A stretch of DNA of 64,000 nt, taken from assembly GCF_012184425.1 (NCBI RefSeq), contig NZ_VTOW01000005.1, positions 1 through 64,000 of the forward strand, in the 5' to 3' direction. The first letter of the stretch is position 1; the number at the start of each line of letters is the position of its first letter. The position numbers and the translations under genes were made by a program. This DNA comes from Candidatus Manganitrophus noduliformans (lineage in GTDB: Bacteria > Nitrospirota > Nitrospiria > SBBL01 > Manganitrophaceae). The notes under the pieces were generated by a model that made no database searches, was not told the origin of the DNA, and worked only from the letters and a program-made list of their open reading frames with translations. This document shows, piece after piece, positions 30,142 to 33,660 of this stretch.

Positions 30142-30207
30142 CGGCCCCGTCCTCGATCCCGCCGGGCCCCTACACACGTCCTTTGAAATGTGTTAAGATC
30201 TCACCCC

Positions 30208-31188
30208 ATGAAACGGAAGTGGCTGAGTTTTCTTTTCTTTCTGATTTCCGGAGCGGGTCTTCTTTTCTTCGGATCGACATCGGGCCAGACGATCGAACCG
30301 AATTTGGCCGACCCCGCCGCGCGTAAGGAGTGCCGCCTCTGCCACAAGGGGCCGGCCCGGCATCAGATCGACGATTCCCGAGACCCCTGGTGCGTGAACT
30401 GCCACCGGCTTCACAACCTGGGCGATATCTTGGGACTGGAGGCCTACTTCCGGCGGGCGGTCCGGGCGATTGAGCCGAAAAAAGGGGAGGAGATCATCGA
30501 ACAGAAGATGGTCTTAATCCCGGCCGGAGAGTTTATCATGGGAGAGGACTTCTTTAAAAAGAATGCAAGCCCCCGGCACAAGGTGCACCTGGACGACTAC
30601 TCTATCGATCTGTACGATGTGACGAACGCGCATTACAAGCGATTTGTCGATGCGACGGGACGATTCCCCCCTTCTCATTGGAATCGCGATCAGTATCCGG
30701 CGGGCAAGGCGAATCATCCGGTGACCTTCGTCAGCTGGTTCGATGCCGACGCCTATTGCAGATGGGTAGGGAAGCGTCTTCCGACGGAGGCCGAATGGGA
30801 GAAGGCGGCGCGGGGCACCGATGGAAGAATGTTTCCGTGGGGAGCGCGGTTCGAGGCCAAGCGGGCGAATGTTCCTCCGGAGGGGATTAAGGATACGACG
30901 CCGGTGAATGCCTTTCCGGAGGGGAGGAGTCCTTATGGACTTTACGACATGTCCGGAAACGTCTTTCAGTGGACCGCCGACTGGTTCCTTCCTTACCCGG
31001 GAAACAAGGTGCCGCATCCGAACTACGGTGAGAAGTTGAGGGTTCTCCGGGGAGGCTCCTTCTTCGACTGCAGCTATTATAACTGCGGCCTCTCCTTCCA
31101 AACTTTCAACCGAATTTCCCTGTCGCCGGCGACCAAGGCGATCTCCGCCGGATTCCGCTGCGCCAAGTCGGAGGCAAAAAATCCGTGA
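30208..31188 (+). CDS. diheme cytochrome fused to formylglycine-generating enzyme domain
   Basis: The 326-residue protein has a signal peptide (residues 1-27), two CxxCH heme c sites (Cys42-Cys45-His46; Cys62-Cys65-His66), and from residue ~100 a full SUMF1/FGE-sulfatase domain (VLIPAGEFIMG, SWFDADAYCRWVGKRLPTEA, GNVFQWTADW). The two active-site cysteines of true FGE are present with the normal spacing (Cys288, Cys293 in GGSFFDCSYYNC). The product would be periplasmic. FGE uses copper and O2 to oxidise a substrate Cys to formylglycine; a heme electron link is not normal for it. Confidence 0.85.
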   Translation: MKRKWLSFLFFLISGAGLLFFGSTSGQTIEPNLADPAARKECRLCHKGPARHQIDDSRDPWCVNCHRLHNLGDILGLEAYFRRAVRAIEPKKGEEIIEQKMVLIPAGEFIMGEDFFKKNASPRHKVHLDDYSIDLYDVTNAHYKRFVDATGRFPPSHWNRDQYPAGKANHPVTFVSWFDADAYCRWVGKRLPTEAEWEKAARGTDGRMFPWGARFEAKRANVPPEGIKDTTPVNAFPEGRSPYGLYDMSGNVFQWTADWFLPYPGNKVPHPNYGEKLRVLRGGSFFDCSYYNCGLSFQTFNRISLSPATKAISAGFRCAKSEAKNP

Positions 31189-31254: not shown

Positions 31255-31731
31255 ATGGTCCGGAGGGGAATCGGTCTTGTTGCGCTTTTCTATCTCGCCA
31301 CGGCGCTGATCTGTTTTGTCCCGTATTTTCAATTCGACCATCCGCTCTTGATTGCAACCGGTCTCATCTATGCCGTTCCTTCATTCGTTATCGCGGGAGG
31401 GGTGGCGTTGAGACGGGCGTGGGGCCGGAAGCTGGCGATGATCCTCTCGCCGCTGCTCATCTTGGTTGTTCTTCCCTTGATGTTTAAAAAGCAGCCGACC
31501 TTTGTTTTTTCGTTTCCCTTCCGGATCGCAGTCACCTATCCCCCCTCTTCGGCCGTTTCTTTCAAATGGTTTTTCGGCCTTCTGCTGATGGGGCATCTTG
31601 TCTCGATGTTTTATCTTTTGGGGGGAAGGGTGAAGGAAGAATTTCAACAGAAAAGTGCCGGGGAAGAAGATCCAAAAGAGAGGGATCAAACGCTCGATCC
31701 GAATGCAGGGGAAGAGGGGAACGGCGACTAG
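31255..31731 (+). CDS. four-helix membrane protein, unknown
   Basis: The 158-residue protein has hydrophobic segments at about residues 7-27, 32-52, 62-78 and 104-124 and a polar acidic tail. I do not recognise a family. The ribosome site before the ATG at 31255 is weak (AGGTTTTAGA). Its stop overlaps the end of the convergent DsrE gene by four bases, so the two genes are packed tightly tail to tail. Confidence 0.6.
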   Translation: MVRRGIGLVALFYLATALICFVPYFQFDHPLLIATGLIYAVPSFVIAGGVALRRAWGRKLAMILSPLLILVVLPLMFKKQPTFVFSFPFRIAVTYPPSSAVSFKWFFGLLLMGHLVSMFYLLGGRVKEEFQQKSAGEEDPKERDQTLDPNAGEEGNGD

Positions 31732-32141
31732 AAGCTAAGGATCATGTCGGCATCGTCCATCTCTTCCAAGAGGAAGGAGGTTAGGCCGCGCGGCTCGTCG
31801 ATTTCCGGAATCAGCGCTTCTTGCGTCAGACCGGCGAGCGCCATGGAGGAGGTGCAGGTATAGAGCTTCACATCGCCCTGTGATTTGACATCCTGAATCA
31901 CTTTCTGAAGGTCGACCATTCCGGTCGCTTCATAGTTTTTCTTTAACTCATTTTCGACCCCGCGGTAGACCTCCGAAAGGTTCAGCTCGGAGATTTTTTT
32001 CCGGGAGAGTTTATAGACCGCCTCGTCCCGGAAGAAGATACGAACAGACATCTCGCAGACGGCGGCGGCCATCACCATTGTAAAAACGGTCACAAAGTTA
32101 TTGTGCGTCCCCCGGGTGACGATGATCGCCATCTTCTTCAC
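31728..32141 (-). CDS. DsrE2-type protein (sulfur-relay family), fifth gene
   Basis: The 137-residue protein reads like DsrE2 (PF13686-type): MKKMAIIVTRGTHNNF start, Cys29 in the AAAVCE helix, and Cys96 in VKLYTCTSSMALAGL, the site where family members carry a sulfur-binding Cys. A GTG at 32141 is the likely start; the ATG at 32132 is also possible. The gene ends the minus-strand DsrE/TusA cluster and follows the TusA-like gene by about 15 bases. Membrane-associated members of this group shuttle sulfane sulfur. Confidence 0.78.
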   Translation of the reverse strand: MKKMAIIVTRGTHNNFVTVFTMVMAAAVCEMSVRIFFRDEAVYKLSRKKISELNLSEVYRGVENELKKNYEATGMVDLQKVIQDVKSQGDVKLYTCTSSMALAGLTQEALIPEIDEPRGLTSFLLEEMDDADMILSF

Positions 32142-32155
32142 TTGTTCACTCGCTC

Positions 32156-32428
32156 TTAAACATTTTTAGGAGGCTGAACACTGGTTAGCCCGCCCTTCTC
32201 GATGAATATCTTCACAAGCCCGTCGACATCTTCGATCTTCACGATCGGATGTTTGAACTTATTCGTCCAGGCGGTGATTTCCCGCTGTTGGAACCGGTTT
32301 CCGTGGACTTCCAGGATCTCTCCTTTTTCCATCGGTGCCAGGGTCGTCCGGATGACGCCGAGGCTGCGGCAGTCGATCGGGTTGAAGTACTCCGTGACGT
32401 TTAAAACTTTTGTGACGTTCAGACTCAG
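32156..32428 (-). CDS. TusA-like sulfur carrier protein, CTG start
   Basis: The 90-residue product folds like TusA/SirA: VTEYFNPIDCRSLGVIRT, then PMEKGEILEVHGNRFQQREI and a final VKIEDVDGLVKIFIEKGG. The sulfur-binding CPxP motif of TusA (LxCPxP) reads LGVIR here, so the catalytic Cys and Pro are missing, although Cys20 lies in the normal DCR position nearby. Start is a CTG at 32428 with GGAG seven bases upstream; there is no ATG, GTG or TTG before residue 33, which hides the gene. It sits 27 bases after the DsrE-type gene at 32456 and belongs to the cluster. Confidence 0.65.
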   Translation of the reverse strand: MSLNVTKVLNVTEYFNPIDCRSLGVIRTTLAPMEKGEILEVHGNRFQQREITAWTNKFKHPIVKIEDVDGLVKIFIEKGGLTSVQPPKNV

Positions 32429-32455
32429 AAAATTGCTCCGTGAAGTCCGGTCGGT

Positions 32456-32842
32456 TTACCAGACCATGACACTGTCGTGCTCTTCCAATAAACGGATCGA
32501 ATCATCCTCGCTGATGATTTCGACCCCCTGAACCATATCCTCTTTATTGATTCCGCGTATTTTCATGTCTTCCGCCACCGCGCGGACCTTGGCGCCGTGC
32601 TCGATCATGAAGGTCATCACCTTTTCAGGAGAGGTTTCATGGAGCATGATGTCCTGGCCGGCGATCTTGGCGTTGACCTGCTGATTTTTGATGCCGTAGG
32701 TCACGGCCGAATCGCGCAGGAGGACGTTGACCTCCACCGGGGTGTCGGAAACGCCGAGGGCGGTGGCGAAGACATGCGGATCGACCGGCTCAAAACTAAG
32801 ATAGATCGGTTTTTCGAAAATAACCAGCACCTTGTTTGCCAT
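32456..32842 (-). CDS. DsrF/TusC-like protein, third gene of sulfur cluster
   Basis: The 128-residue protein starts MANKVLVIFEKPIYLSFEPV and has the DsrE-superfamily fold (HVFATALGVSDTPVEVNVLL; VRAVAEDMKIRGIN), but no cysteine at all. Cys-free DsrF/TusC-like subunits occur as structural partners in TusBCD or DsrEFH complexes. It follows the 148-residue DsrE-type gene by 13 bases. Confidence 0.75.
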   Translation of the reverse strand: MANKVLVIFEKPIYLSFEPVDPHVFATALGVSDTPVEVNVLLRDSAVTYGIKNQQVNAKIAGQDIMLHETSPEKVMTFMIEHGAKVRAVAEDMKIRGINKEDMVQGVEIISEDDSIRLLEEHDSVMVW

Positions 32843-32855
32843 CTTTTTATCTCCG

Positions 32856-33302
32856 TTATCGGTAGGTGGGAATGCAGATCACCCGGTCGGCCGCCTTGAT
32901 GAATTTCCAGAGATCACCGAGGGTCCCGACGATCGATCCCCCCATCTGGTGTTTCTCGACCCCCCGCTCTTGCACGCAGAGAATGCAGGAAACCCAGTCT
33001 AGCTTGGCGCCGTGAAGGCCGGCGCGGATCAACTGATCGATGAATCGGCCGACGTTCGGGTGTTTCTCGCCCAAGACTTTCTGCAGCGAACCAGGCTCGT
33101 TGTGATCGATTTGATCTTTGTTGGTCAGGGTGACCGCTTCCTCGAAGGCCCAGACGTTCACATCAACCCCCCTCTGGAGCAGTTTCTCGACCAGCCGGAG
33201 AACGGTGGTCGGCGCCTCGCGTTGGTAGGAGCCGGTCGCCAGGACGATCGCAACCCTTTTTACTTTTGCCGGTGCCGCAGTCGGTGCGGTTGCAGTAGCC
33301 AT
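32856..33302 (-). CDS. DsrE/TusD-like protein, second gene of sulfur cluster
   Basis: The 148-residue protein has the DsrE fold with Cys106 and Cys109 (LDWVSCILCVQERGV); the Cys before the VQERG helix corresponds to the sulfur-carrying Cys78 position of TusD. A Pro/Ala-rich N-terminal tail precedes the strand. GGAGG lies eight bases before the start. It is 31 bases after the first gene of the cluster. Such proteins accept persulfide sulfur and pass it to TusE or to a sulfite-reductase partner. Confidence 0.78.
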   Translation of the reverse strand: MATATAPTAAPAKVKRVAIVLATGSYQREAPTTVLRLVEKLLQRGVDVNVWAFEEAVTLTNKDQIDHNEPGSLQKVLGEKHPNVGRFIDQLIRAGLHGAKLDWVSCILCVQERGVEKHQMGGSIVGTLGDLWKFIKAADRVICIPTYR

Positions 33303-33333
33303 TGTTTCCTCCTAAAGTTTTGAAGAATTCGTT

Positions 33334-33660
33334 TTAATACCAAATGACCTTATCCGATCCCTCCGTGATCAGGTCCGCCAACTGATCAACGTTCGACTGT
33401 GTCACTCCATCGGCAAGCTGTGCGACGCCGCGGGCCTTGCACGAGATATCGTCGACCATGACTTTGGCGCCTCGCTTCGAGAGGTCGGTCAGATTCTTTC
33501 CGATATCCCCCCCCTTTCGGGCGGCGATGACGCCGTTTTCGATCAGAAAAAGGGTCACCTCATTTCCATCCTCTTTTAATTTGGAGGCCACCTTCTGGAT
33601 ATAGCGGCCGTTCGTATATTCCGTCAAATCGCGGCTATCGACGATGAGATAACGAGCCAT
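33334..33660 (-). CDS. small DsrE-family protein, first gene of sulfur cluster
   Basis: The 108-residue protein has the DsrE-like fold and Cys74 in MVDDISCKARGV, where family members carry the sulfur Cys. It starts at the ATG at 33660, supported by GGAGGAG eight bases upstream; the frame extends to 33879 without a ribosome site. It is the first gene of the five-gene DsrE-DsrE-DsrF-TusA-DsrE2 set, transcribed away from the HDOD gene. Confidence 0.78.
   Translation of the reverse strand: MARYLIVDSRDLTEYTNGRYIQKVASKLKEDGNEVTLFLIENGVIAARKGGDIGKNLTDLSKRGAKVMVDDISCKARGVAQLADGVTQSNVDQLADLITEGSDKVIWY

Follow-up and report, generated by a model that had tools for sequence, protein, structure and literature searches.

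A divergent DsrEFH-TusA-DsrE2B-type gene set of Candidatus Manganitrophus whose TusA-like protein carries an apparently relocated cysteine

Sulfur exchange between DsrEFH and TusA by way of cysteines such as those described here has been demonstrated in other systems (PMC13293266, PMC3397948). In the Nitrospirota, a second arrangement is known, the DsrEFH type II or YTD cluster, in which a small divergent DsrEFH triad stands beside tusA (PMC13293266). The DsrE2B protein of S. solfataricus has been solved as structure 2qs7 (PMC4175335). The window analyzed here, 64,000 nucleotides of Candidatus Manganitrophus noduliformans, carries on its minus strand a run of five short genes, ordered P5-P4-P3-TusA-like-P1. 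The features of this cassette are as follows.

33334..33660, minus strand: P5, a DsrE/DsrH-like subunit of 108 aa (Pfam DsrE 2.8e-9, DsrH 6.9e-6)
32856..33302, minus strand: P4, a DsrE-like subunit of 148 aa (Pfam DsrE 7.6e-9)
32456..32842, minus strand: P3, a DsrH/TusB-like subunit of 128 aa without cysteine (NCBIfam TusB/DsrH 5.1e-7, below cut-off)
32436..32439, minus strand: GGAG, a putative Shine-Dalgarno sequence (sequence comparison)
32156..32428, minus strand: the TusA-like protein, 90 aa from CTG (Pfam TusA 2e-5)
31728..32141, minus strand: P1, DsrE2B-like, 137 aa with a GTG start (Pfam DsrE 5.1e-11, DrsE_2 5.2e-10)

A sequence-only reading had recognized four DsrE-superfamily genes and a TusA-like gene here, and this was borne out: P1, P4 and P5 exceed the Pfam DsrE cut-off, and P3, just under the DsrH and DsrE cut-offs, has a predicted DsrH-like fold. 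Three DsrE-superfamily genes are adjacent and one of them is DsrH/TusB-like, as in DsrEFH/TusBCD sets; P5-P4-P3 is a DsrEFH-like triad and P1 is DsrE2B-like. Adjoining the cassette on the opposite strand (30190-31188) is a gene for a SUMF1-like protein with an FGE-sulfatase domain, ahead of which lie CxxCH haem-type motifs (CRLCH, CVNCH).

Searches with tblastn recovered the whole cassette, with gene order and orientation unchanged, in a genome of the same genus (G183), in one of the same class and another family (G157), in four of family f20 (G010, G028, G044 and G071) and on contigs of Manganitrophus type (L016-L019); L026 (G106), a short contig, carries the last three genes. The gene order is shared by three Nitrospirota families. 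Among the 296 Nitrospirota genomes sampled, the cassette was present in 9-11, and the TusA-like gene in 8 of about 396, a count that leaves out two weak matches, G228 and G042, the latter being a canonical TusA with CPxP. A single scan of the whole collection with the TusA-like protein as query gave Nitrospirota-type matches only, and its closest named relative is that of a Candidatus Manganitrophus (L016, 95% identity). Genome G139, which belongs to the same order as the window's genome, retains a triad of the P5-P4-P3 type but lacks the TusA-like gene and P1, and the same holds for G159 and G175 of that order within the DNA stretch examined. In G071, a bin that is 86% complete, at least P4 and the TusA-like gene are present twice in closely similar form, on contigs C146 and C63, possibly reflecting a strain mixture.

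The cassette genes are under purifying selection. By Nei-Gojobori counts, dN/dS within Manganitrophus is 0.02-0.13 for P4, P3, the TusA-like gene and P1; for P5 compared with G183, synonymous sites are saturated and dN is 0.035. When the TusA-like gene (32186-32428) was compared with that of Manganitrophus GAC4 (L016), dS was 0.90, far above the 0.10-0.23 of its neighbours P3, P4 and P1, which suggests local recombination.

The cysteines that had been pointed out in the DsrE-type proteins, Cys74 of P5, Cys106 and Cys109 of P4 and Cys96 of P1, all exist and do not vary among intact homologues from complete five-gene cassettes, and P3 has none, as stated. In P4, Cys106-x2-Cys109 is invariant in an alignment of 11 homologues that includes the distant G139 and G159 copies. 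Cys106 occupies the active-site position of DsrE/TusD (DsrE Cys78), seven residues before the Arg of an RG pair, as in TusD, and YchN (1jx7) has the Cys-x-x-Cys...RG stretch in common with P4. Matches of P4 to DARPin and PPR models were set aside as repeat artefacts. Cys74 of P5 lies four residues past the active-site position that is canonical for DsrE and is gone in the three-gene version of G139; P5 also matches NCBIfam TusB/DsrH (6.3e-7, below cut-off). The profile of P3 matches DsrH (2hy5_C, E 9.8e-5), and its AlphaFold model (pLDDT 84.8) superposes on 2hy5_C with Z 15.0 at 1.8 A and on YchN with Z 15.6. In P1, Cys96 is the sole invariant cysteine and stands at the canonical position, in C[TS]SS[MFL]; the best solved relative is 2qs7 (SSO1126; profile E 1.9e-12), and this homology together with the single conserved cysteine places P1 with DsrE2B.

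The TusA-like protein had been described as lacking its catalytic cysteine, with LGVIR in place of LxCPxP. CPxP is indeed absent, the loop reading NPIDCRS, but that loop contains a cysteine that had been missed, Cys20, which is invariant in 12 of 12 homologues, down to 46% identity. The consensus of these 12 is L[ND]V[TR]xx[FY]NP[IV]DC[RQ]SLGV[IL]RTTL, with N16, P17, D19 and C20 invariant. LGVIR replaces nothing; it sits three residues further on, in helix 1, where its R27 falls on R27 of E. coli TusA. Residues T29, M33, G36 and E37 likewise bear the same numbers in both proteins, and in the register that they set with R27, D19-C20-R21-S22 matches C19-P20-E21-P22 of E. coli TusA, placing Cys20 one residue past the CPxP cysteine. 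In the register of strand 1 (L9-N10 on LD), as in the profile-profile alignment, N16-P17 falls on CP with an insertion after it, and Cys20 is four residues past. Judged from these alignments, CPxP is gone under either register and an invariant cysteine is left in the same loop.

The score against Pfam TusA (PF01206), 24.8 bits, is below the cut-off of 28.6, and profile-profile comparison with canonical TusAs gave 96.7% and E 4.4e-10. Defence (PADLOC) and phage (PHROGs) models yielded nothing useful for this protein. Its AlphaFold model (mean pLDDT 78.9) has a strand at 5-10, helices at 21-30 and 45-57, and strands at 38-43, 62-68 and 71-77. Cys20 immediately precedes helix 1; the loop ahead of Cys20 is modelled with moderate confidence only (pLDDT block 64). 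The top structural match is E. coli TusA (3lvj_C; Z 12.4, 1.8 A over 76 residues, VIA-align). The protein thus lacks the CPxP motif that PF01206 calls for, but has a predicted TusA fold with a cysteine at the start of helix 1. Sequence and model together indicate that the TusA cysteine is relocated rather than lost. It has to be weighed whether the protein could be catalytically dead, a scaffold or docking subunit beside which only the DsrE-type cysteines would hand sulfur to one another. The missing CPxP and the alignment from the N-terminal side, which puts Asn16 at the canonical cysteine, would fit such a role, but the invariance of Cys20 in homologues as distant as 46% identity and its modelled place at the head of helix 1 make it improbable. 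Because that cysteine is kept, the earlier suggestions that sulfur skips TusA, or that TusA acts as a scaffold, are unsupported.

The TusA-like ORF has no in-frame ATG, GTG or TTG before residue 33, and its CTG at 32428 had been proposed as the start. A GGAG lies 7 nt ahead of this CTG, and both are kept in L016, L017 and L018; in the congener G183 an ATG occupies the exact codon of the CTG, and in L024 and L019 in-frame ATGs are found in the same region. Compared with L016, codons 9-32 carry 10 synonymous changes and no non-synonymous ones; compared with G183, the counts are 11 and 1. A start at the ATG of residue 33 was rejected, since strand 1 and helix 1 would be lost and the codons before it are under strong purifying selection. 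Because of the orthologous ATG, the kept GGAG and this selection, translation from CTG 32428 is likely, in agreement with the first proposal.

When the surroundings of the cassette were examined, no reductase or rhodanese gene was identified beside it within the window, and in most cassette genomes no sulfur-metabolism gene was identified beside it. The earlier statement to this effect holds for the present genome, but not for G157, where a sulfite reductase with two TusA domains lies directly upstream; all on one strand, the order there is rrf2-tauE-aprA-aprB-sir(TusA)2-P5-P4-P3-TusAL-P1-sat, the first gene being rrf2-like. The G157 fusion (L024:3553-6240) also has a HEPN domain. Adjacency of sulfite reductase to the five-gene cassette is seen in this one genome; in Manganitrophus and family f20 the neighbours are others. 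Directly 3' of the cassette, two f20 genomes have a Memo-AMMECR1 fusion gene (L023:6738-8120, L025:2524-3906), followed in L023 by a gene resembling the matching radical SAM partner. The window's genome itself encodes a sulfite/nitrite reductase with a C-terminally fused TusA domain (G000:C2:573788-576199; L029:7785-10199), a fusion for which no description was found in the literature searched, and it has rrf2-tauE-aprA-aprB away from the cassette. Relatives of the fusion, full-length or partial, are present in 142 of the 296 sampled Nitrospirota genomes, also without the cassette. Co-occurrence of the cassette with sir-TusA or AprA was rejected as functional evidence, since across the genomes compared each is either common or nearly universal; the specific evidence is the adjacency in G157, a single case.

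Sulfur oxidation is the role of canonical dsrEFH-tusA-dsrE2 sets (PMC3397948, PMC13293266), and the cassette might similarly be an oxidative relay that feeds sulfane sulfur into a sulfite-forming step, a sulfite-reductase-like enzyme run in reverse and then AprAB/Sat, giving auxiliary sulfur oxidation. The aprAB and sat genes that flank the G157 cassette, and the TauE sulfite exporter with them, point the same way. However, DsrC had no match in the window's genome, and DsrA was not found above cut-off in any of ten genomes, eight of which carry the cassette, so the Dsr pathway is disfavoured, as is membership of the DsrEFH type I pathway, which is marked by a DsrC acceptor and dsrAB. Moreover, the sulfite reductase resembles NirA/assimilatory enzymes, and the sat, aprAB and aSir genes shared by the Manganitrophaceae have been read as assimilatory (PMC9040806). 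We therefore consider an oxidative relay somewhat unlikely. As regards the sHdr pathway, PF02754 had 7 matches in the window's genome; separate HdrB-type genes did not occur there as a neighbouring pair, and the one short HdrB-like protein is encoded behind a gene resembling that of an iron-sulfur subunit.

A housekeeping role in supplying sulfur for thiolation or for Fe-S cofactors, independent of sulfite reductase, would accord with the general lack of identified sulfur-metabolism neighbours and with E. coli, where TusBCD and TusA serve tRNA 2-thiolation (cited in PMC3397948). We find it quite doubtful, given that the window's genome has no TusE/DsrC, that a separate TusA already adjoins a cysteine-desulfurase-like gene there, and that the patchy spread of the TusA-like gene is at odds with a core function. 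A canonical TusA of this genome adjoins DsrE2; the DsrE2 at L028 and the other DsrE loci lie outside the cassette. The sequence-only reading would have been refuted by a different nearby TusA doing the work, but none of the genome's other canonical TusAs is near the cassette.

The cassette is best described as an altered but apparently functional DsrEFH-TusA-DsrE2B-type relay, to judge from its sequences and models. The suggestion of a complete but altered DsrE/TusA relay is thus supported by the five-gene order, the conserved cysteines and the canonical dsrEFH-tusA-dsrE2 layout. The explanation that we favour overall, and hold to be moderately probable, is a cytoplasmic persulfide relay tentatively tied to a sat/AprAB/sulfite-reductase route. 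Its parts would be a DsrEFH/TusBCD-like heteromer (P5-P4-P3), with P3 as a presumed structural subunit, a TusA-type carrier and the DsrE2B-like protein. Persulfide would be carried on Cys20, which at the head of helix 1 putatively succeeded the CPxP cysteine; sulfur may pass to or from Cys106 of P4, backed by Cys109, and Cys96 of P1. More tentatively, the relay may serve the sat/AprAB/sulfite-reductase route by trading sulfur with the TusA domain of the sulfite-reductase fusion, our best guess being a flow from the reductase towards biosynthesis; this link is a hypothesis.

We regard as unlikely, if attractive, the stronger reading of a third DsrEFH-TusA type in Dsr-less Nitrospirota, whose TusA, its cysteine relocated, swaps protein-bound sulfur directly with a TusA-bearing sulfite reductase; if that were true, no sulfide would have to be set free. 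The putative link to sulfite reductases with built-in TusA domains suggests a channelled-sulfur route in autotrophic Nitrospirota without Dsr. The CPxP cysteine is taken as a defining feature of TusA, yet a conserved lineage appears to have given up CPxP while retaining a cysteine at that end of the helix. A moved cysteine would show that the TusA active site can shift, and that calls of an inactive TusA based on the motif can mislead.

In comparison with known systems, the cassette resembles the YTD/DsrEFH type II cluster in its small divergent DsrEFH triad beside a tusA-type gene, but differs in its altered tusA and its extra DsrE2B-like gene. Membership of that type was rejected, as none of the same ten genomes had YeeE/YedE (PF04143) or, as noted, DsrA above cut-off. 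With TusA (PF01206; E. coli 3lvj, 1dcj) the TusA-like protein shares the predicted beta-alpha-beta-alpha-beta-beta fold and the cysteine at the start of helix 1, but it has NPxDC[RQ]S for CPxP and scores under the Pfam cut-off. P1 is like DsrE2B (SSO1126, and that of M. cuprina, PMC4175335) over the whole domain; the DsrE2B of that description lies beside dsrE3A and Hdr genes, whereas P1 lies beside a DsrEFH-like triad. The closest layout is the canonical DsrE-DsrF-DsrH-TusA-DsrE2 cluster of G042, which is located near rrf2-aprA-aprB-sir-TusA-sat. In both, TusA follows three DsrE-superfamily genes and precedes a gene of DsrE2 type; the cassette differs in that its TusA lacks CPxP, its fifth protein is short and DsrE2B-like, and its P5 cysteine is shifted by four residues. 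Given this common layout, the cassette can be read as a diverged version of the canonical cluster.
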